Shown here in pieces: positions 5,475-37,806 of a stretch of DNA of 63,849 nucleotides (positions within the stretch are counted from its first letter, which is position 1; each line of letters opens with the position of its first letter). Position numbers and translations under genes: made by a program. The DNA comes from an uncultured Spirochaetia bacterium (GTDB lineage: Bacteria; Spirochaetota; Brachyspiria; Brachyspirales; Brachyspiraceae). The stretch spans positions 1 to 63,849 of the forward strand of contig CAMQVF010000002.1 of assembly GCA_947038115.1 (NCBI GenBank), in the 5' to 3' direction. A model generated the notes under the pieces. The model saw only the letters and a list, made by a program, of their open reading frames with translations, made no database searches and was not told the origin of the DNA.

Positions 5475-8075
5475 TTAACAAACACCATTATATGCATCTA
5501 ATAATATCTGTTTTAAATCACTCATCAAAGGATAAGCAGCATTCGCACCAGTACATTGGTCATCAAATGCATTCTCAACGATGTTGTCAAGTTTAGCCAT
5601 GAAGTCTTCTTCTTTTATACCATATGCTTTTATAGATAATGGAATATCGATAGAAGTTTTTAATGCTTCAACAGCTTTGATTAATCTGTCAAGTTTATCG
5701 TCGTCATTACTACCACCCAAGTTCAACAATTCAGCAATTTCAGCATATCTTCTTTTTGCATTTGGATAATGATATTGAGAAAAAGCACCTTGTTTATGAG
5801 GGCAGTCATTTGAGTTATATCTCATAACTTGAGAAATTAGTAAAGCATTAGCAAAACCATGAGGAATATTAAATGCACTTCCAAGTTTATGCGCCATAGA
5901 GTGACATATTCCTAAAAATCCATTAGCGAAAGCCATACCAGCAAGTGTTGCTGCATAATGCATTTTTTCACGAGACTCTGGGTTATTCGCACCATCTTTA
6001 TATGAATTTGTCAAATGCTTAAATACTAAAGTAATAGATTCTTTTGAGTTACACTGAGAAAACTCGGTAGCTAAAACAGAAGTGTATGACTCCATAGCAT
6101 GAGTGAATACGTCAATACCGCTTGCCGCACATAGCCCCTTAGGCATGCTCATAACAAAATCAGCATCTATGATAGCCATAGAAGGAGTTAAAGCATAGTC
6201 AGCAATTGGGTATTTAATATGAGTAGCATCATCAGTAATAACAGCAAAAGGAGTAACTTCACTACCAGTACCACTAGTAGTAGGAATAGCAACAAGTTCT
6301 GCTTTTTTACCTAATTCAGGAATATCACAAATACGCTTTCTTATATCCATAAAACGCATAGCGATATCTTCAAATTTAGTTTCAGGCTGTTCAAATAATA
6401 ACCAAACTATTTTAGCAGCGTCCATAGGAGAACCACCGCCTAATGCGATAATAAGGTCAGGATTAAATGAATTAGCTTGTTCTACTGCTGCTCTAATTGT
6501 AGATAGTGTTGGATCAGGCTTAACATCAAAGAAAGTATGATGTGCTAAATGCATTTCATCCAATATATCTGTAATCTTTTTTACAATACCTAAATCATAA
6601 AGTGATTTATCTGTAATAATCATAGCACGTTTTCTGTCAGAATACTCGCGTAAAGCAAGTCCAACAGAGCCTCTTTTGAAGTATATTTTTTTTGGAACTC
6701 TATACCAAAGCATATTTTCTCTCCTATAAGCGACTGATTTTACGTTTAGTAAATGTTTTACACCTACGTTTTCACTAGTAGAATTTTTACCCCAACTTCC
6801 GCAACCAAGAGTCAAAGAAGGTTCTAATCTAAAATTAAATAAATCTCCTATAGCACCTTGAGAAGCAGGTGTGTTTATAAGTATTCTACCTGTTGGCATT
6901 TTTAAGTAGAATTTCGCAATTTTTTCTTTATTATTATTTTCATCTGTGTATAAAACAGAAGTATGACCAAATCCACCGAACTCGATAAGTTTATAAGCTT
7001 TATCAACGGCATCATCAAAGTCATTCGATTTATACATAGCCAAAACTGGTGATAGTTTTTCATGTGCGAATTCTTCTTCACGACAGATATTCTTAACTTC
7101 ACCTATTAAAACTTTAGCATCAATTGGCACATCAACACCAGCCATTTGTGCTATAGTATGTGCTGATTGTCCTACTATCTTAGCATTTAAAGCACCATTG
7201 ATGATAATTACTTTAGCAACTTTTTCACGTTCAGAGTTGTTTAATAAATAAGCACCTCTATAAGCAAGCTCTTTTTTAACTTCATCATAAATGTTTTTAT
7301 CAACGATAATACTTTGTTCACTTGCACAAATAACACCATTGTCAAATGTTTTACTAAGTATAATTGAACTTACAGCAAGTTTGATGTCGGCATCTGAATC
7401 GATTATAGCTGGAGTATTACCAGACCCTACGCCTAAAGCAGGTTTGCCTGATGAATAAGCGGCTCTAACCATACCAGGTCCGCCAGTAGCAAGTATTAAA
7501 CTAGTATCAGCATGATTCATAAGCCCACCAGATAATGCTATAGTCGGTTCTTCAATACAAAGAATAAGCCCGTCTGGAGCACCAGCTTTTACTGCCGCAT
7601 CATTTACTATTTTACAAGCAGCTGCAGTACATTTTTTAGCCCTAGGATGGGGTGAAAATACTATAGCATTTCTTGTTTTAAGAGTGATTAATGCTTTAAA
7701 TATAGCTGTAGATGTAGGGTTAGTAGTTGGTACTACGCCTGCAATAACTCCTATAGGTACAGCAACTCTCTTAATACCGTTTGCTTCATCGCATTCGATT
7801 ACGTCACATGTTTTTGTATTTTTATACTTGTTGTATATATACTCTGAAGCAAAGTGGTTTTTTATAACTTTGTCTTCAACTATTCCCATACCTGTTTCTT
7901 CACAAGCCATTTTAGCTAAAGTAATACGATTTATATTTGCTGCTATTGACGCTGCCCTAAATATGTCGTCAACTTTTTCTTGACTAAATGTAGCATATAT
8001 AGCTTGTGCTTTTTTTGCTTTAGATACAAGCTCATCTAAAACTTTAAACTCTAAGTTTTCTTGTTCTTCTGACAT
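5475..8075 (-). CDS. adhE: Bifunctional acetaldehyde-CoA/alcohol dehydrogenase
   Basis: An 866-residue fermentative enzyme that reduces acetyl-CoA to acetaldehyde and then ethanol, regenerating two NAD+; family members assemble into cytosolic filaments (spirosomes). The N-terminal aldehyde dehydrogenase half carries the catalytic cysteine in GVICASEQ (about Cys250). The C-terminal iron alcohol dehydrogenase half carries GGGSPMDAAK, GTGSEVTPFAV and the metal-binding histidines in DVFTHAMES and GICHSMAHKLG. I start at the ATG at 8075, which has an aaggag ribosome site 7 bases upstream. A longer frame reaches 8180 but would run through the likely -10 box, and its extra 35 residues do not resemble AdhE. 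Single-gene transcript ending at the terminator near 5400. Confidence 0.96.
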   Translation of the reverse strand: MSEEQENLEFKVLDELVSKAKKAQAIYATFSQEKVDDIFRAASIAANINRITLAKMACEETGMGIVEDKVIKNHFASEYIYNKYKNTKTCDVIECDEANGIKRVAVPIGVIAGVVPTTNPTSTAIFKALITLKTRNAIVFSPHPRAKKCTAAACKIVNDAAVKAGAPDGLILCIEEPTIALSGGLMNHADTSLILATGGPGMVRAAYSSGKPALGVGSGNTPAIIDSDADIKLAVSSIILSKTFDNGVICASEQSIIVDKNIYDEVKKELAYRGAYLLNNSEREKVAKVIIINGALNAKIVGQSAHTIAQMAGVDVPIDAKVLIGEVKNICREEEFAHEKLSPVLAMYKSNDFDDAVDKAYKLIEFGGFGHTSVLYTDENNNKEKIAKFYLKMPTGRILINTPASQGAIGDLFNFRLEPSLTLGCGSWGKNSTSENVGVKHLLNVKSVAYRRENMLWYRVPKKIYFKRGSVGLALREYSDRKRAMIITDKSLYDLGIVKKITDILDEMHLAHHTFFDVKPDPTLSTIRAAVEQANSFNPDLIIALGGGSPMDAAKIVWLLFEQPETKFEDIAMRFMDIRKRICDIPELGKKAELVAIPTTSGTGSEVTPFAVITDDATHIKYPIADYALTPSMAIIDADFVMSMPKGLCAASGIDVFTHAMESYTSVLATEFSQCNSKESITLVFKHLTNSYKDGANNPESREKMHYAATLAGMAFANGFLGICHSMAHKLGSAFNIPHGFANALLISQVMRYNSNDCPHKQGAFSQYHYPNAKRRYAEIAELLNLGGSNDDDKLDRLIKAVEALKTSIDIPLSIKAYGIKEEDFMAKLDNIVENAFDDQCTGANAAYPLMSDLKQILLDAYNGVC

Positions 8076-26776: not shown

Positions 26777-27682
26777 ATGAAAGTAGTTCCTCGTTTTTTT
26801 GTTTTAATTATATTGATAGCCTTATCTATATCTACATTATGTTATTCTGCTTCAGATGATATTGGTATTAATGAACTTATTATGGAAGAGATTACCGACA
26901 ATGTCGATAACCCCTATCTTAAAATACCTATAAACTTAGGCTTTTTTACATTCAATCTTAAAGTAACAAAGCATGCTATACTCATTTTTTTAGCAGCGAT
27001 ATTCACAATTGTTTCTGTTAAATACTTAGAACATAAATTAAAGCGTCCATTTAATAAACCTACAATATTGCAGGGTATATTAGAAGTTTTGGTTGATTAT
27101 ATGTCGCGAGATGTTCTTGAACCCACTTTGGGCGAAAAAGCAAAAAAATATTTACCATTTTGTTTGACAATATTTTTATTCGTGCTATTTTCAAATTTAA
27201 TAGGTATCATTCCATTATTAATTAAAATAAAAGCACAAGATAGCAATCACTTTTATTATTTGTCGGGTAGTGTTGGTGCTAATTTAGGCTTTACACTTGC
27301 CGTATCTATTATAGTATTTTTTGTTTATAATATCGCAGGAATGAGAAAAAAAGGCATTATTAAATATTGGCTTCAACTCGCACCCAGCAATTTACCAATA
27401 ATTCTTGTTCCATTTTTATGGCTCATCGAGTTTATAACATTGCTTAATCGTGCTTTGGCTTTGTCGATACGTTTATTTGCGAATATGGCTGGTGGGCATA
27501 TTATGATTATAGTAATACCTTATCTTATAATTATGTCACAAACTTTAGTCATCTCGCCATTTATTTTATTGTTTTTATGCTTTATTTATATTTTAGAAAT
27601 TTTTGTTGCAGTTTTGCAGGCCTATGTATTTGCATTGCTTTCGTCGGTTTATATTGGGCTTGCTGTTAATGAAGATCATTAG
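26777..27682 (+). CDS. atpB: F-type ATP synthase subunit a
   Basis: The 301-residue proton-channel subunit of Fo. It begins with a signal-peptide-like segment (1-24) and a periplasmic stretch before the first core helix, an N-terminal extension seen in several bacterial lineages. The essential arginine is in RALALSIRLFANMAGGH, within the conserved penultimate helix. It is followed 34 bases later by atpE. Confidence 0.93.
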   Translation: MKVVPRFFVLIILIALSISTLCYSASDDIGINELIMEEITDNVDNPYLKIPINLGFFTFNLKVTKHAILIFLAAIFTIVSVKYLEHKLKRPFNKPTILQGILEVLVDYMSRDVLEPTLGEKAKKYLPFCLTIFLFVLFSNLIGIIPLLIKIKAQDSNHFYYLSGSVGANLGFTLAVSIIVFFVYNIAGMRKKGIIKYWLQLAPSNLPIILVPFLWLIEFITLLNRALALSIRLFANMAGGHIMIIVIPYLIIMSQTLVISPFILLFLCFIYILEIFVAVLQAYVFALLSSVYIGLAVNEDH

Positions 27683-27713
27683 ACTTTTGGTTTGAATATA
27701 TATTAGGAGATAA

Positions 27714-27935
<222 letters not shown>

Positions 27936-27957
27936 AATACTTTAAGGAGTCATGTAA

Positions 27958-28461
27958 ATGCCACTTTTGAGAATCGATCCGGGTATTATGATATGGACTT
28001 GGATTTCTTTTGGCTTAGTTATTGCAATTTTGGGTGCAACCAGTTGGAAGCGAATAATTAAGGCTCTAAATTCTCGTGCCGATAAAATTAATAGCGACTT
28101 GCTTGCCGCCGAAAAAACTAAAGAGGATGCTAAAAATTCTTTGGCCTCTTATAGAGAAAAAATCGATAGTGTAAAAGAAGAAGCTAGAGTTATTATCGAA
28201 AGTGCGAAGGTCGAAGCTAATCTAGCAAAAGATAAAATTATCAAAGATGCCAATGAAAAAGCAGAACAAAATAGGATGACTATTATTGCGGATATTAATG
28301 CGTCGAAAGAAGAGGCATTGTCGAGTCTTAAAAATGAGTCAGTCGAGCTTGCTGCATATATTGCCGAGAGAATTCTTAAGCGGAATATACAAAAAGAAGA
28401 TCATAACAAGCTTATAAGTGAGTTCATTAGCGATACAGCTAAAACTAAAAATAAGGCATGA
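27958..28461 (+). CDS. atpF: F-type ATP synthase subunit b
   Basis: The 167-residue peripheral-stalk subunit: one N-terminal membrane helix (about 8-28, PGIMIWTWISFG) followed by a long charged coiled coil (about 35-140). Length and layout are normal. Its stop lies 4 bases before the start of atpH. Confidence 0.92.
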   Translation: MPLLRIDPGIMIWTWISFGLVIAILGATSWKRIIKALNSRADKINSDLLAAEKTKEDAKNSLASYREKIDSVKEEARVIIESAKVEANLAKDKIIKDANEKAEQNRMTIIADINASKEEALSSLKNESVELAAYIAERILKRNIQKEDHNKLISEFISDTAKTKNKA

Positions 28462-28465
28462 TGAT

Positions 28466-29152
28466 ATGGATTCTAATAATTTCGATCCAAATTTAATAGA
28501 AACTATTACTTCAAAACTCAAAGAAGAAGTTAGGAATGAATCTATCAAAAGCAAGATAAGAGATATTCAAGAAAAATTTCAGCATAATTCGACTTCATTG
28601 CAATATGCAAATGCCATGTTTCAAGTGGCGAGTGAGCTTAATATTGTAGATAAAGTTAGAGATGATTTTGTTATTGTATTTGATACTTTGTTACAAGATG
28701 AAGATATTAAGACTTTTTTGAGTTCTCATTTTATAAATATTAAATCGAAAATCGAGATATTAAACAAGGCATATAAAAATAAAATTGAGCCTGAAACACT
28801 TAATTTAATATCGATTATTGTCGAACGTAATTTAATTAATATACTTTCGAGTATAATAATAGAATATGAAAATGTTATTGATGATTATTATAATATTGCA
28901 CAAGTGGTTATAACAACGGCTTATCCAATTGATAATACTGAGATAATAGAAAAAGCGATAGTTGGTATGATTGATCGCGAAATAAGTTTGACAGTTAAAG
29001 TCGATGAAAGACTTATCAGTGGAATTATTGTTGATATTGGCGGGACAGTTTACGATTATAGCATGCTTAATGAGCTTAAAAAAATGAAAGAGATAGTACT
29101 TAATTGCGATGTAAGTGATACTATGACAATTAAGAGTGATAATATTAGTTGA
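28466..29152 (+). CDS. atpH: F-type ATP synthase subunit delta with N-terminal extension
   Basis: The 228-residue delta (OSCP) subunit joining F1 to the peripheral stalk. The conserved start of the family (SLQYANAMFQVA) does not occur until about residue 44, so there is an extra charged, helical N-terminal segment of about 40 residues compared with the usual 175-180-residue protein. The C-terminal conserved region (VDERLISGIIVDIGGTVYD) is present. The ATG at 28466 is the first reasonable start after atpF; an upstream non-ATG extension would overlap atpF by 40 bases. Confidence 0.88.
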   Translation: MDSNNFDPNLIETITSKLKEEVRNESIKSKIRDIQEKFQHNSTSLQYANAMFQVASELNIVDKVRDDFVIVFDTLLQDEDIKTFLSSHFINIKSKIEILNKAYKNKIEPETLNLISIIVERNLINILSSIIIEYENVIDDYYNIAQVVITTAYPIDNTEIIEKAIVGMIDREISLTVKVDERLISGIIVDIGGTVYDYSMLNELKKMKEIVLNCDVSDTMTIKSDNIS

Positions 29153-29163
29153 AGGACTTGTTG

Positions 29164-29823
29164 ATGCTTGAAAAAAGAAAATTTATATTGTCCTATAGTG
29201 CAGGTAAAGACTCGACACTTGCTTTATATAGAATGATAAAAATGGGGCATGAACCTCTGGCACTCATAACAACTATGAATGGCAAAGAGGAGCGTTCTTG
29301 GTTTCATGGCGTTACCGAAAAAATGCTTGAAAAAGTATGTGAAAGTCTCGATATACCAATTCGTTTTATTGATACCACTGCTGACGAATATACCAAATGT
29401 TTTTCGAAAGTGATATCAGAGCTTAAAGATGATGGGGCTACAGCCTGTGTTTTTGGAGACATTGATATTCAAGAACATAAAGATTGGTGGTTAAAAATTT
29501 GCGATGATGTTGGAATTGAAGGGCTTTGGCCATTATGGAATGAAGATAGAGAGGCGTTGGTTCGTGAATTTGTCGATGAGGGTTTTAAAGCTAAAATTAA
29601 AGTTGTAAATACTAACTTTCTTGACGCTTCCTACCTATCGAGAATTCTTGATAATAATTTAATAGATGAAATTAAAAATAAGGGAGTTGATCCGAGTGGC
29701 GAAGGTGGCGAGTTCCACACATTCGTTTATGACGGGCCTTTATTTAAAAAGAAAATTGTGATTACTCAAAGTGAAATTGTTTATAAAGACAATTATGCGA
29801 TGATCGATTATTTTTTTGTATAA
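29164..29823 (+). CDS. COG2102/DUF71 ATP-binding protein (diphthine--ammonia ligase family)
   Basis: A 219-residue PP-loop ATPase. The nucleotide loop SYSAGKDSTLAL is at the N-terminus and the C-terminal GEGGEFHTFVYDGP motif is diagnostic of COG2102. Archaeal and eukaryotic members amidate diphthine; bacteria lack diphthamide, and bacterial members have been linked by gene context to cobalamin salvage, without firm proof. It begins 12 bases after atpH with a gaagga site, i.e. inside the ATP synthase operon, where it has no obvious role. A frame from 29149 (TTG) is possible but lacks a ribosome site. Confidence 0.85.
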   Translation: MLEKRKFILSYSAGKDSTLALYRMIKMGHEPLALITTMNGKEERSWFHGVTEKMLEKVCESLDIPIRFIDTTADEYTKCFSKVISELKDDGATACVFGDIDIQEHKDWWLKICDDVGIEGLWPLWNEDREALVREFVDEGFKAKIKVVNTNFLDASYLSRILDNNLIDEIKNKGVDPSGEGGEFHTFVYDGPLFKKKIVITQSEIVYKDNYAMIDYFFV

Positions 29824-29852
29824 GATGTACTTTATTTTAGGAAATATACTTT

Positions 29853-31352
29853 ATGAATATTAACACGGGTGAAATAACTGAAATACTAAAAAGTCAGATT
29901 AAAAATTATAAATCTGATTTCAATCCAAGTGAAGTCGGCACTGTAATAGATGTTGGTGATGGTATTGCTCATGTACTTGGGCTTCATCATGTAATGTCAA
30001 ATGAAATGCTAATGTTTGAATGTGGTGTCACAGGCATTGCTTTCAACTTAGAAGAGGGCAGTGTTGGCGTAATAATTTTGGGTGATTATGTGCATGTAAA
30101 AGAAGGCACAAAAGTCAGCCGATTAAATAAAATTTTAGAAGTACCTGTGGGTGACGCTTTAATTGGGCGTGTTGTTAATCCTTTGGGTATTCCTATCGAT
30201 GGGCTTGGCGAGATAGAAAGTTCTGAAAGCCGAGTTATCGAATTTGAAGCTCCTGGCATAGCTGACAGACAGTCAATTTTTGAGCCCATGCATACAGGTA
30301 TTAAAGCTATTGATTCTATGACTCCAATTGGACGAGGACAAAGACAGCTTATTATCGGGGACAGAAAAACAGGAAAAACTACAGTAGCACTTGACACTAT
30401 AATAAATCAAAAGGGTAAAGATATCATTTGTGTTTATGTAGCAATTGGGCAGAAGGCGTCAACTGTTGCAACGGTTGTTGATATTTTGAGAGAGCATGGA
30501 GCTATGGAGTATACCATTATTGTTACGGCATCGGCTTCTGAGCCAGCGTCACTTTTATATATTGCACCTTATGCAGGTTGTGCTATTGCTGAATATTTTA
30601 TGTATAGTGAAAACAAACATACATTGGTTGTATATGATGACCTTTCAAAGCAGGCAAATGCTTATAGACAAATATCATTATTGCTTCGTCGTCCACCGGG
30701 TCGAGAGGCTTTTCCTGGGGATGTTTTTTATATTCATGCTAGGTTATTAGAAAGATCAGCCAAATTGTCAGATAAACTTGGCGGAGGATCTCTGACTGCA
30801 CTTCCTATAATTGAAACTCAAGAAGGTGAAGTTGCTGCTTATATACCAACGAATGTCATATCTATAACAGATGGGCAGATTTATTTAGTGCCTTCCTTGT
30901 TTATGGCTGGTGTGCGTCCTGCTATTGATGTAGGTGTTTCTGTCTCACGTGTTGGAGGCAAGGCTCAGACTAAGGCTATGAAGGCTGTAGCGGGTTCTTT
31001 AAGGCTTGATTTAGCTTCTTATCGTTCGCTTGAGGCTTTCTCTAAATTAGGTATTGGGCTTGATAAAGTAACACTTTCACAGCTCGACAGGGGTGCTAAA
31101 ATGGTTGAGTTATTAAAGCAAGCGCAATATAGCCCCATTCCTTTTGAAGAGCAGGTTATTGTTTTATTTGCGGCAACTCAAGGGTTTTTAGATAATGTTG
31201 AAGTTGAGAGAATTAGTGAATTTGAGTGGCGTATAATCGACTATATCAAAAAGCATAATCCTGATATTTTAGGCATTATTAAAACAACGAAAGAACTTCC
31301 TAAAGATGATAGTATTACAAATTTATTAAAGTCATTTAAGGATAAATTTTAA
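29853..31352 (+). CDS. atpA: F-type ATP synthase subunit alpha
   Basis: The 499-residue regulatory nucleotide-binding subunit of F1. The Walker A loop [10 protein letters not shown], the arginine-finger region [14 protein letters not shown] and the N-terminal [12 protein letters not shown] are all present. Full length. One base separates its stop from the glycosyltransferase start. Confidence 0.95.
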
Positions 31353-31353
31353 T

Positions 31354-32187
31354 ATGAAAATTGCTATATTAATATTTGCACATAAAAATGAAAGTCAATT
31401 GAAAAAGCTAATTGAGCATTTGAAAGTTGATTTTGATTTATATATTCATATCGATAAAAAGTCTAAATTTAAAATGGACAGTTTTGATAATGTTTCTATA
31501 TATAAAAAATTTAATGTAGCTCATGGTGGATATAGCCAGATAATGACAAGTATTTTTTTACTGAAAGAAGCATTTCAAAAAAAGTATGACAGATATATTT
31601 TTATAAGTGGGCAAGATTTACCATTAAAAAGTAATAATTATATAATAGATTTTTTTAATAATGCTCAAAATAAAGATAAAGAATTTATATTAGCAGAAGA
31701 AGTCTGCTCTAATGATGGGCTTTATAGTAACATGTGTAGACGAATGAATACTTATAATTTTGGTTTTTGGTACAGAAAATTTACACATCAATCAGTTAGA
31801 ATGGCGGTTTCAAATTTACCTTTGCTTAGAAGGACATTGGCTAAAAATATGTATTTTGGATCTAGTTGGTTTAATATTACTCATAGTGCTTTAAATTATA
31901 TTTTAGAGTATATCGAGGAAAATATAGAATTCTTAAAAAGATTTGAACATACTTGGGGCGGTGATGAGTTATTTTTTAATACAATATTAATGAATAGTGA
32001 TTTCAAGAATAATTGTGTGAGCGATAATGTTTTAAGGTTTATGGCTTGGAATGGCGGAGTACCTAATACACTATTAATTAATGATTATGAAGTTCTTAAA
32101 AATAGTGATGCTTTATTTGCTCGTAAATTTGACGAAAAAATTGATAATGAAATAATAGAAAAATTATATTTTGATATAAAGGCTTAG
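31354..32187 (+). CDS. GT14-family (core-2/I-branching-like) glycosyltransferase
   Basis: A 277-residue glycosyltransferase whose N-terminus (IAILIFAHKNESQLKKLIEHL, then DLYIHIDKKS) and motifs VAHGGYSQI, FISGQDLPLK and HTWGGDELFFNT match the GT14 family. This family transfers sugars such as GlcNAc or xylose from nucleotide donors. It has no signal peptide and probably acts in the cytosol on a surface-glycan precursor. It lies one base after atpA and 7 bases before atpG, so it must be co-transcribed with ATP synthase genes, an odd place for it. Acceptor unknown. Confidence 0.8.
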   Translation: MKIAILIFAHKNESQLKKLIEHLKVDFDLYIHIDKKSKFKMDSFDNVSIYKKFNVAHGGYSQIMTSIFLLKEAFQKKYDRYIFISGQDLPLKSNNYIIDFFNNAQNKDKEFILAEEVCSNDGLYSNMCRRMNTYNFGFWYRKFTHQSVRMAVSNLPLLRRTLAKNMYFGSSWFNITHSALNYILEYIEENIEFLKRFEHTWGGDELFFNTILMNSDFKNNCVSDNVLRFMAWNGGVPNTLLINDYEVLKNSDALFARKFDEKIDNEIIEKLYFDIKA

Positions 32188-32194
32188 AAGTGAT

Positions 32195-33082
32195 ATGGGT
32201 AAACTTAATTTAATAAAATCACGAATAAAATCGGTGTCATCAACTTTGAAGATAACAAAAACTATGGACATGGTTGCTCGTTCGCAGGCTTCTAAATTGC
32301 TTGTTTATGAACAAGGTATGCGTCCTTATACTCAAAAAATGAATCGAATAGTTGAAGAATTGTCTATGGGTAATAAAGATGATTTGCATATACTTCAAAT
32401 TCCTAAGTCAAATATTAAACGAGTGGCTATTTTTATAATTACATCGACACGTGGTCTTTGTGGTTCATATAATAGTCGTGTTTTCGACTTAGCACTTGAG
32501 CGAATTAGACATCATAAAAGAAGAACTGATAATCGTGAAATCGAACTGCATATTATTGGGCGTAAGGGTGAGGTTTATTTTGAAAAACAGGGATTCGATA
32601 TTTATAAGGCATATAGTGATATTGATGAGAATGTAACTTTTGATTATTGTGAAGATATAATGGAAAACTTTATGAAAGATTATGCTCATGATAGACTTTC
32701 ACGGGTTGAAGTTATATACACCAGATATTACACTCGTGTGGTTCATATTCCTAAAGTTCAAAGTCTTATTCCTATAGTTGATGATGAAGAGGATGTTGAA
32801 GTTCTTAATCAAAAAATTGCCACTAATTATATTGTCGAGCCTAATGCTCGGTCTATACTTGATGAGGTTATTCCTGTTGCTATAAAAAATTCATTTTATT
32901 TTATGATTATAAACTCGATTTTATCTGAAAATGCTGAAAGAGCTGTTGCCATGCGTAATGCCACAGAGAATGCTCAAAAAATGCTTTTAGAATTAAAAAA
33001 GAAAGCGAACAAGGCTCGTCAAGAAAATATTACAAATGAGCTTCTTGATATTATTGGTGGTAGTGAGGCTTTGAGTAAATAG
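32195..33082 (+). CDS. atpG: F-type ATP synthase subunit gamma
   Basis: The 295-residue central-stalk subunit. The N-terminal helix (LIKSRIKSVSSTLKITKTMDMVA) and C-terminal helix (RAVAMRNATENAQKMLLELK) that form the rotary coiled coil are conserved. It is the last ATP synthase gene here: atpD and atpC, which normally follow, are absent and a convergent aminotransferase gene comes next. Confidence 0.95.
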   Translation: MGKLNLIKSRIKSVSSTLKITKTMDMVARSQASKLLVYEQGMRPYTQKMNRIVEELSMGNKDDLHILQIPKSNIKRVAIFIITSTRGLCGSYNSRVFDLALERIRHHKRRTDNREIELHIIGRKGEVYFEKQGFDIYKAYSDIDENVTFDYCEDIMENFMKDYAHDRLSRVEVIYTRYYTRVVHIPKVQSLIPIVDDEEDVEVLNQKIATNYIVEPNARSILDEVIPVAIKNSFYFMIINSILSENAERAVAMRNATENAQKMLLELKKKANKARQENITNELLDIIGGSEALSK

Positions 33083-34159: not shown

Positions 34160-34681
34160 TTAGTTAGCTGTTAATTCTATAAGTTTATTACGCTCTTTAA
34201 ATATATTTCTAGCATAACGTTGAGTCTTTTTAGAATATCTCCTTGAGTCGTAAATATTACCGCCATTATAATATCTTAAAGTTGTAACCAAATCACCATT
34301 GAAGCGGACAAGGAGTTTTTTCAAAAATAAAATAGATATTAAAATATTATCATAAGTATTATGTCGATTAAGTTCTATATTAACATCAATATTAGCAATT
34401 CGACTAATTTGTGAAGTGCCGTAAGCACCAACACTCGAGACGGCATGTTCGACAAAGTCACTTTCAATTTTTATCAAAGCAATTATTAAAAGTGGATCCA
34501 TATCAAATTCATTAGCAATATTAAATATATATTCTACAAGTTCTTTATTTGTATTATATCTAACAAGTATTTTTTGTACTTTATTTTCTCTTTCAGCATC
34601 TATATACTTTTTAATATACATATATTCAGTTTCTAATGTAAATGAACATGCTAAAAATAATAACAATGCAATTTTTTTCAT
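34160..34681 (-). CDS. Lytic transglycosylase (SLT domain)
   Basis: A 173-residue exported peptidoglycan-cleaving enzyme. The start at 34681 gives a clean signal peptide (MKKIALLLFLACSF); the frame extends upstream to 34729 with 16 less typical residues. The transglycosylase domain spans about 45-165, with catalytic Glu73 in ALIKIESDF. The usual GLMQI motif is changed to GAYGTSQIS, and LRYYNGG near the end is conserved. Non-hydrolytic cleavage between MurNAc and GlcNAc is expected in the periplasm. Confidence 0.82.
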   Translation of the reverse strand: MKKIALLLFLACSFTLETEYMYIKKYIDAERENKVQKILVRYNTNKELVEYIFNIANEFDMDPLLIIALIKIESDFVEHAVSSVGAYGTSQISRIANIDVNIELNRHNTYDNILISILFLKKLLVRFNGDLVTTLRYYNGGNIYDSRRYSKKTQRYARNIFKERNKLIELTAN

Positions 34682-34820
34682 AAGCAATAAAACAAACCTA
34701 TAAGTAATACTATTGACAATACGAATCATTGTATATTATATTAAAAAATAGTAAATATTAAAACAATAAAAATAGTTAAATATTTTCTAATAAATTCCGA
34801 TAATGGTGCTTTAAAAGAGA

Positions 34821-35372
34821 TTATCTTCTTTTTTTTATTCTGAAAGTATCAGTTAAGATATATTTGTCGTCGAAATAAAGTTTTACAAACATATTTTGTG
34901 AATTAGTCCAATTTTGATATTTAAATCTTGTGCTAAAACCTATTGCCGATTTTTTTTCAAATGAAATATTATTAAACACATGCACATTAGAAGCGATGAT
35001 ATCTTCACCACTATACAAAAGAACATCGGCGATTAGCATATCAATTTTGCTATGTTTATAGGTTAAATTTTCAAGTTTGATGTTTATATCTACGAAATTA
35101 TTACTATCGACAACATTTTCAACAGTTAAAAGCATTGTCTTATTTTTTATAAAGTGTTTTATTATAGGCAGATTATGAAGCCCATTATTTTTATATGCGG
35201 TAATGCCCATAACGGCAATAATAAGAAATATCCCGTATCCAAAAATAAACATTCTATTCGAGAATATGCTTTTTCTTCGCACATAAGGTGTGTAATATCT
35301 TCTTTTATTAGGGTCTTCTTTTAAGCTATAATATTCATTCTTGCGGTCATTCGGATCAAAAGTTTCAGGCAT
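34821..35372 (-). CDS. Single-pass membrane protein of unknown function
   Basis: A 183-residue protein if started at the ATG at 35372 (MPETFDPNDRKNEYYS); an in-frame ATG at 35405 would add 11 residues and has a comparable ribosome site. A basic cytosolic region (about 20-40) precedes one membrane helix (about 40-61), then a beta-rich extracytoplasmic domain of about 110 residues. I recognise no family. It lies between the HU-LysM gene and the lytic transglycosylase gene on the same strand, which suggests envelope work. Confidence 0.6.
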   Translation of the reverse strand: MPETFDPNDRKNEYYSLKEDPNKRRYYTPYVRRKSIFSNRMFIFGYGIFLIIAVMGITAYKNNGLHNLPIIKHFIKNKTMLLTVENVVDSNNFVDINIKLENLTYKHSKIDMLIADVLLYSGEDIIASNVHVFNNISFEKKSAIGFSTRFKYQNWTNSQNMFVKLYFDDKYILTDTFRIKKRR

Positions 35373-35450
35373 ATTTATTATTTTCCTTACATACATGAAC
35401 TTCATATCCGTCTTTTTTTAGAAAATGATTGACAGAAAGCTCAAAGCCGA

Positions 35451-35591: not shown

Positions 35592-37535
35592 TTAATTTCC
35601 TAAGCCATTAGTATTTTTTATAATATTGTCATATAAACTAGATGGAATTCTTTTTTTCCATTTTTTAAATGTATCTTTATCAAAATAGGCTGATAATCTT
35701 GCAACCCAAACTGCATGTTTAGGGCGTCTTTCATTTGTAAGAATTTCATATAAATAAAGGTATGACTTTGAGAGTGTTGTATTTATCGAGTCATTTTTCA
35801 AGAATTTCTTTTTAGTTTCAGGTATATTTTTATAGAAAACTTGCGTCCCTTTTTTTACGATATCAGTCGATTGAAGCTTTTCTGTATTAAGAGCAAATAT
35901 TAAAGGCCAATAAAGAGATTCCCCGTAAATAGATTTAGATATTTCCCAAAAATACATATCTTTATCTGTTGTATATCTCAATTTAGGATTTTCACCAGCA
36001 GATGAAAAATAATTATCCACCGTGTCTGATAAAGTTTGCTTCAACTCAACTGTAGGAACTTGAGCGACAGTAGGGGCTTTGAAACGCTTAAATGTTACAC
36101 TTGTCATATAGATAATAATTAGAGCAACAGATAATCCAATAATAATGGGCAAGATTTTAGAATTTTTTTCATTTTTTTGTTTTTGAAGCATACCCACAAC
36201 CTCTTCTTTAAGTGTATTTTTATAGTTTCTATTTTTTTTGAGTTTTCGAAATTTCGCCATATTCGTTTGTTTTAACTTATCTTCTTTTGCCTGAAAAATT
36301 TCTTTTATCATTTTTTCTTCCAATAGTTGATTTTCTTTATCTTTTAAGTGAATATTTCTTTCTCTTCTAAAACGTCTTTCTTCTTTTTTTAGTTCTTCCG
36401 TTTTCAATGTATCTTCTTCTATTTGACTTTGTTTAGGCTCATTATTTATCTTGTTTTCAATTTTTTTATATCTATTTTCTCTTCTAAAATCTTCCATACG
36501 CTCGAGTTCTATTTCTGCCAACTCTTTCTCTTTTAGCAATCTACTTTTTTCTATTTTTCTATTTTCACTTTCTGTAGCTTCTTTAATTTCTTTTTTATGA
36601 TTTTTTCTATTATTACTCTCTGTAGCTTTTTTCTCTATAGCTTTATTATCGATTTCTTCCACATTTTTTTTATCAATTTGTTTATTGTCTTTTTCTTTCT
36701 CTACAGTTTTATTATCGAGATTATTTGATTTTCTTTCAATATTATCTAAAAAATTTGGAATTGTATTTTTAGTTAAATTATCAACTATGTCATCAATTTC
36801 GCTTGTTTTATTATCTAAAAAATCTTCCTCAACATTTGGTACAATATATTCTTCATACTCTTCAATTAATTCTTCAATTAGTTGAACCGAAGAGTCATTG
36901 TCTTCTGATGAGACATTATCTGTTTTTTGATTTTTATTTGTTTTAGTATTTTCACTATATGTCGTGAGCATTTTTTTTATTATATCATCAATATCCGACT
37001 TCGTATCTTTTTCAACAATTTCTTCAGTGATAGAGTTATCATCATCTTTTTTTAGCAATTTATTATTATTTTTAATATCGATATCATTTATATCTTCTAT
37101 TATTTCATTATTTTTAGATGCATTAAATTTTTTATTTATTTTGTCTTGTAAGTTTTTACTCGCCACAAATAATTTATCTTCATCGTCGTAAAACACTCCA
37201 AAATCTTTTATGTTTATATTATCGCTTTCGATTAGAATATATTTTAATGTTGAGATTATAGCTTTGTAATATTTTTTGATACCAGCATCGGTTTCAAGAT
37301 TTTCAATATATTTTATTTCAATTGAGTTTTTCTTTTTTTCTTTCTCTATTAATAATGAGTATTGATTGTCATGTTTTTTTATAAAAAGTGTACCTACACC
37401 ATCTATATAGAAAGATTTATTATTTAATATTAAATCTGCTATTTTTTGAAATAAGCTATGAACTGCATCGCTTGTTTTGTCATAATCTGTAGCAAGTAGC
37501 TCAGATACTCTTTTTATTAATACGTTTTCTTCCAT
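35592..37535 (-). CDS. HU-like DNA-binding, transmembrane, LysM fusion protein
   Basis: A 647-residue protein with an unusual layout. Residues about 3-68 (LIKRVSELLATDYDKTSDAV through FYIDGVGTLFIKK) resemble an HU/IHF half, and about 72-135 (YYKAIISTLKYILIES, then NIKDFGVFYDD) look like a second one, as in tandem CCDC81-type HU domains. Residues about 140-455 are highly charged and coiled-coil-like. A membrane helix lies at about 461-482, then a LysM-type domain at about 523-570 (MYFWEISKSIYGESLYWPLIFALN). This puts the N-terminal DNA-binding-like part in the cytosol and LysM in the periplasm. I infer a nucleoid-to-peptidoglycan linker; that function is not shown. It has its own strong promoter. 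Confidence 0.72.
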   Translation of the reverse strand: MEENVLIKRVSELLATDYDKTSDAVHSLFQKIADLILNNKSFYIDGVGTLFIKKHDNQYSLLIEKEKKKNSIEIKYIENLETDAGIKKYYKAIISTLKYILIESDNINIKDFGVFYDDEDKLFVASKNLQDKINKKFNASKNNEIIEDINDIDIKNNNKLLKKDDDNSITEEIVEKDTKSDIDDIIKKMLTTYSENTKTNKNQKTDNVSSEDNDSSVQLIEELIEEYEEYIVPNVEEDFLDNKTSEIDDIVDNLTKNTIPNFLDNIERKSNNLDNKTVEKEKDNKQIDKKNVEEIDNKAIEKKATESNNRKNHKKEIKEATESENRKIEKSRLLKEKELAEIELERMEDFRRENRYKKIENKINNEPKQSQIEEDTLKTEELKKEERRFRRERNIHLKDKENQLLEEKMIKEIFQAKEDKLKQTNMAKFRKLKKNRNYKNTLKEEVVGMLQKQKNEKNSKILPIIIGLSVALIIIYMTSVTFKRFKAPTVAQVPTVELKQTLSDTVDNYFSSAGENPKLRYTTDKDMYFWEISKSIYGESLYWPLIFALNTEKLQSTDIVKKGTQVFYKNIPETKKKFLKNDSINTTLSKSYLYLYEILTNERRPKHAVWVARLSAYFDKDTFKKWKKRIPSSLYDNIIKNTNGLGN

Positions 37536-37717: not shown

Positions 37718-37806
37718 GGAGGTAGATGGGGTCCGGTGTCCCCCGCGCTCTTCAAAAGCGTTGGATGCCCTAAAAGCATCGGCAGGTTCGACTCCTGCCT
37801 CTTCCG
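37718..37806 (+). tRNA. selC: Selenocysteine tRNA (anticodon TCA)
   Basis: The RNA has the selenocysteine layout: 15 bases from the 5' end to CCGGT as in E. coli selC, a long D stem (37728-37733 with 37738-37743, one T-T mismatch), anticodon stem-loop with loop CTTCAAA and anticodon TCA, a long variable arm (GATGC paired with GCATC) and a T arm with TTCGACT. The 3' end is discriminator G without encoded CCA. The acceptor is irregular: GGAGGTAG faces CTCTTCC, one base short of a perfect 8-bp stem, leaving a bulged T at position 6. It implies selenoprotein synthesis in this organism; selA, selB and selD are not in the window. Confidence 0.85.

Follow-up and report, generated by a model that had tools for sequence, protein, structure and literature searches.

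A candidate wall-anchored adaptor with tandem HU modules and a LysM domain in Brachyspirales and other Spirochaetota

Bacteroidetes are said to possess HU-CCDC81 proteins with a SPOR domain (reportedly described by Burroughs et al. 2017), for which a role in chromosome partition was predicted. Their HU module is joined to a peptidoglycan-binding domain, as it is in the 647-residue spirochaete protein that we analyse here. In the latter, however, a LysM domain with a helical tail replaces SPOR—a Pfam scan returned no SPOR match for this protein, where LysM is found instead—and the host belongs to Spirochaetota, where the relatives outside Brachyspirales additionally have a coupled free HU gene. 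A second comparison is offered by Rv3852 of tuberculosis, a membrane-anchored nucleoid protein that binds DNA and is held in the membrane through a C-terminal transmembrane (TM) helix; it is annotated as H-NS-like rather than HU, and the accessible part of the source describes no periplasmic wall domain (PMC8233713). As far as that part goes, neither Rv3852 nor the Bacteroidetes HU-SPOR proteins share the HU-HU-TM-LysM layout.

At the level of individual modules, both N-terminal units have the same fold as the HU/IHF superfamily (PF00216) and the CCDC81-like HU domains (PF18175), and the tandem arrangement is shared with CCDC81-type proteins. Compared to these, the 647-residue protein adds a fused TM helix and LysM domain, and its HU pair differs from HU/IHF in being acidic across Brachyspirales and devoid of the DNA arm. 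The closest solved fold to the tandem is GliD of the Mycoplasma mobile G1-ATPase (PDB 9io5), which touches the alpha subunit and, unlike the present protein, docks on an F1-like ATPase (PMC11864180). CCDC81b, in turn, is an axonemal microtubule-inner protein (PMC11961760). Given these two cases, tandem HU is probably already known as a protein-docking module. The LysM proteins Kbp (YgaU) and TsaP have LysM fold and profile similarity in common with our protein, yet their partners differ and they carry no HU. In a literature search largely without subscription papers, we found no published description of the HU-LysM combination and nothing relevant on HU together with LysM or SPOR.

Domain architecture and membrane topology

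The window—the whole 63,849-nucleotide stretch of DNA analysed, from an uncultured Spirochaetia bacterium of the Brachyspiraceae—contains the gene on its minus strand (Table 1), as the single copy in a genome of 1.77 Mb that is 99% complete. A sequence-only reading of this stretch had proposed two HU/IHF-like modules at about residues 1-135, a membrane helix at 461-482 and a LysM-type domain at about 523-570. Its boundaries proved accurate to within a few residues, and the helical tail following LysM (helices at about residues 580-642 in the AF2 model) is an element absent from its domain list.

Table 1 Features of the HU-LysM gene and its conserved or possible operon neighbours in the window.
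Feature	Position	Strand	Basis or remark
HU-HU-linker-TM-LysM-tail protein, whole ORF	35592..37535	(-)	647 aa, ATG start
HU module 1, residues 1-72, hairpin without RNP tip	37320..37535	(-)	PF00216 28.4 bits, AF2
HU module 2, residues 73-142, armless	37110..37319	(-)	AF2; IHF match of second profile half
Long charged linker, predicted cytoplasmic, residues 143-460, probably disordered	36156..37109	(-)	Composition
Single TM helix, residues 461-482	36090..36155	(-)	Hydropathy and flanking charge, window protein and relatives
LysM domain, residues 518-569	35829..35984	(-)	AF2, Foldseek, PDB profile search, sister-family Pfam
Conserved helical tail after LysM, residues 570-647	35595..35828	(-)	AF2 helices; remote-tail homology
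Partner, 194 aa single-TM protein, next gene downstream, no Pfam family	34821..35405	(-)	Conserved linkage
SLT lytic transglycosylase, next gene, same orientation	34160..34729	(-)	PF01464 E 1.3e-10

When the full-length protein was scanned against Pfam, HU-CCDC81 was the only HU match, below threshold (E 0.0015), probably because the low-complexity middle lowers the score. Residues 1-145 scanned alone exceeded the PF00216 cut-off of 22.4 bits (E 1.9e-6), and PF00216 matched all 28 aligned family sequences (28/28, E up to 0.1). AF2 modelled the region as two tandem HU units with a mean pLDDT of 91.1 and a pTM of 0.85, so that the first 140 residues are predicted to have an HU fold. A profile of the HU region searched against the PDB matched HU chains through its first half and IHF through its second (2iie, E 3.1e-5, positions 89-120), and Foldseek returned HU matches to the tandem model with probabilities up to 0.98 (1riy), tandem HU-like proteins ranking higher. 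A phmmer search of the PDB with the full-length protein gave no match. Weak full-length Pfam/NCBIfam matches to ornithine cyclodeaminase and LWR-salt were discarded as chance or composition.

In the PDB, the tandem model came closest to M. mobile G1-ATPase chains (TM-score, normalised by query length, of about 0.7 and at most 0.75) and to doublet-microtubule proteins; DNA-binding HUs ranked lower. We infer that the G1-ATPase chains, R-W, are GliD, six chains fitting the copy number, and the matched microtubule chains would be of CCDC81 type. Searching the PDB with the HU-region profile revealed no sequence similarity to GliD.

The linker of the window protein is acidic in its first part and basic thereafter, and its length varies strongly among relatives. 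The TM segment (core 461-479, mean hydropathy 2.38) is the sole hydrophobic segment. Flanking charges in the family obey the positive-inside rule with the N-terminus inside, the window protein itself having +3 on both flanks; the protein is accordingly predicted to cross the membrane once, with a cytoplasmic N-terminus and a periplasmic C-terminus, its two ends on opposite sides. For the window protein itself LysM stays below the Pfam cut-off, but two sister-family members match at E 2.7e-8 (L033) and 3.3e-6 (L034). AF2 predicts the beta-alpha-alpha-beta arrangement of a LysM fold at about residues 519-568, the best Foldseek LysM match is Kbp (7pvc, probability 0.99, rmsd 1.6 Å), and a PDB profile search with this region matched LysM proteins. 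LysM and tail would bind peptidoglycan, although another ligand is conceivable.

Distribution and neighbourhood in Brachyspirales

Homologs were present in all Brachyspirales genomes (31/31), among them Brachyspira hampsonii, B. pilosicoli, B. innocens and B. alvinipulli; the window genome belongs to the same family as most such relatives and to a different genus. Related loci were recovered with an alignment as query, a single-sequence query having returned no matches. Some Brachyspira carry four HU modules (L025/L054, L027/L051), and a sister-family genome (G159) encodes HU-HU-TM-LysM with both HU and LysM at Pfam level. All Brachyspiraceae genomes in which the gene is complete retain the HU pair. 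In two genomes the gene appears broken into two ORFs by a frameshift or stop, through either a sequencing error or a real loss (L056 in G078, 5743-7532; L026 in G132).

A PF00216 scan of the order detected no free-standing HU/IHF gene in any of 29 Brachyspiraceae genomes (29/29), where the HU-LysM protein is the only detectable HU fold. Within Brachyspirales, free HU genes were confined to the sister species G144, whose LysM protein keeps TM, LysM and tail and has no HU.

In 23 of 24 other loci from Brachyspiraceae, the HU-LysM gene is followed, immediately or with nnrD in between, by the gene of a single-TM partner of roughly 185 aa; some species appear twice in this count, and the single exception stops at a contig edge. 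No nnrD separates the two genes in the window. The SLT lytic transglycosylase is a possible member of the same operon in the window, a linkage that is not conserved in the Brachyspira loci examined. Just upstream, in divergent orientation, lies a selenocysteine tRNA at 37718-37806 (+) (ARAGORN; Rfam tRNA-Sec, 62 bits). The window further holds an F-type ATPase cluster (a, b, delta, alpha, gamma) at 26777-33082 (+), which is broken up by two other genes, one diphthamide-synthase-like (29149-29823) and one for a Core-2/I-branching glycosyltransferase (31354-32187); more alpha/beta-type ATPase subunits are encoded on other contigs of the genome. These F1 ATPase genes lie close by, and the best fold match is an accessory of an F1-like ATPase; we considered a link and dismissed it, since the HU-LysM gene sits between thioredoxin and nnrD in the examined Brachyspira loci.

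A two-gene HU unit in other Spirochaetota

A search for the same layout across Spirochaetota, a check suggested by the sequence-only reading, recovered HU-TM-LysM proteins in six further families: f13 (G012), f23 (G025, G036), f4 (G002), f12 (G011), f19 (9 of 118 genomes searched) and f56 (6 of 26). PF00216 was unambiguous in several of these proteins (1.3e-19 in L190), and several had LysM in the same chain at E down to 1.1e-10, as illustrated by L093 (PF00216 7.5e-13, LysM 1.2e-10) and L064 (3.9e-14 and 1.7e-9). The LysM of L086, L190 and L191 falls under the Pfam cut-off and was assigned from motif and profile similarity. By hhalign, the LysM and tail of Brachyspirales aligned to those of f19/f56 over 113 columns (probability 96.8, E 2.9e-10), and the Brachyspirales HU region to the remote HU region with a probability of 92.

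In 20/20 genomes of the six families, the HU-TM-LysM gene is directly preceded by a free HU-like ORF, which runs a few bases into its start and encodes 72 to about 106 aa, with an uncertain start codon in some cases. The overlap suggests translational coupling, and its constant presence makes the ancestral unit look like a two-gene HU pair with a wall anchor. G025, G036 and several f19 genomes have additional free HUs elsewhere, suggesting that the coupled HU is a dedicated partner. No separate HU gene overlaps the gene start in Brachyspirales; the second HU sits in the same chain. The Brachyspirales HU1 profile scored the HU of most TM proteins above small HUs, and the HU2 profile gave its top scores to the small armless HUs of f13/f23—a preference that is suggestive only, since ordinary free HUs reach similar scores, and that hints at tandem modules resembling the two partners of the pair in reversed order. 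That the upstream free HU was simply fused, in that order, to the HU of the TM protein is unsupported, the small upstream HU being HU2-like.

Beyond these units, other spirochaete families have short proteins, either secreted or with a TM segment, whose LysM and helical tail are similar and which have no HU (L046, L047, L048 and L049). In a TM-LysM protein of G075 (L108:814-1785 (+)), N-terminal repeats that by eye resemble the helix-hairpin-helix type replace HU, possibly constituting another nucleic-acid-type module on a wall anchor.

DNA or protein as the ligand of the HU pair

The HU domains of the remote TM proteins are basic (pI 8.1-10.5), and 11 of 16 checked carry the arm tip [RK]NPx[TS][GN], with a variant in the remainder. 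Their free HU partners are mostly basic, L086 being an exception, and free-standing HUs of other spirochaetes have a pI of at least 8.9. The Brachyspirales HU region, in contrast, has a pI of 4.4-6.7; that of the window protein is nearly uncharged (net charge about 0, pI 6.1), with most relatives acidic. The RNP arm motif was found in 0/27 Brachyspirales sequences, and the conserved HU columns consist of structural glycines and hydrophobic residues, four columns holding at least 60% K/R as against ten with at least 60% D/E. Overall charge is a weak proxy for DNA binding, as a local basic patch could remain, and the HU1 hairpin of the window protein does carry several lysines (IKK...EKEKKK). 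Direct DNA binding by the window HU pair seems unlikely to us, and a protein ligand somewhat more likely. The sequence-only reading had proposed that one polypeptide might connect nucleoid and cell wall. For the family this is plausible, because the remote HU domains are basic, mostly RNP-armed and accompanied by a coupled free HU gene, and DNA is most simply the cytoplasmic ligand there; the window copy itself draws no support for such a link from its sequence, given its pI, missing arm, few conserved basic columns and protein-docking closest folds.

Our preferred reading, with a rough probability of 0.5, is a single-pass wall-anchored adaptor whose window copy docks a cytoplasmic protein more probably than it binds DNA. 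From the inner membrane, the HU pair would extend into the cytoplasm at the end of a long, flexible linker, and the periplasmic LysM and helical tail would hold peptidoglycan. In the related Spirochaetota unit, the small free HU and the HU-TM-LysM protein would pair their modules into an HU pair at the membrane that most likely grips DNA and tethers the nucleoid to the wall. Brachyspirales would have gathered both modules in one chain and lost positive charge and DNA arm, losses that make protein docking the likelier function of the window copy; it may thus dock a cytoplasmic protein, or a nucleoid-located one, to the wall.

A direct tether in the window species too, in which the HU pair would bind DNA, possibly in a distorted form and with little regard to sequence, and would link chromosome to peptidoglycan, appears unlikely, although the HU fold is present, canonical arms and a coupled free HU occur in relatives, and the HU1 hairpin offers lysines. 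The lack of any other detectable HU in 29 Brachyspiraceae genomes also speaks for this tether, since the HU-LysM protein could then do the nucleoid job. Set against it are the acidic to neutral HU region without RNP arm, the excess of conserved acidic over basic columns and best structural neighbours that are not DNA-bound. HU folds are dimeric, and the pair might instead merely dimerise or multimerise, clustering LysM at the wall with no cytoplasmic cargo tethered. The four HU modules of some Brachyspira would suit multimerisation, and the linked membrane partner gene, the HU-less LysM-tail proteins of other spirochaetes and the HU-less protein of G144 fit an envelope role as well; we nevertheless consider it improbable, as the long cytoplasmic linker and the HU pair kept in complete genes suggest cytoplasmic reach. 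That HU and LysM are both unreal, as the lack of an above-cut-off match in the full-length Pfam scan might suggest, is hardly credible in light of PF00216 in every aligned family member, confident AF2 folds and remote homologs with unambiguous PF00216, several with LysM in the same chain.

A bolder reading is a tentative one, and we hold it to be rather doubtful: spirochaetes may own a dedicated trans-membrane chromosome-wall tether, with free HU and HU-TM-LysM pairing on DNA at the inner membrane and LysM on peptidoglycan, and the Brachyspiraceae tandem may have become the cell's only HU, leaving all HU-fold function wall-anchored. How chromosome copies are held and spaced in long, thin spirochaete cells is poorly understood, and one chain uniting an HU pair with a wall-binding domain, which in several families comes with an HU subunit of its own, offers a concrete candidate that can be deleted. 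That Brachyspiraceae apparently lack any free HU is in itself unexpected. Should the HU pair of the window copy indeed be a protein dock, it would join GliD and CCDC81 as a further example of a chromosome-packaging fold turned mechanical scaffold.
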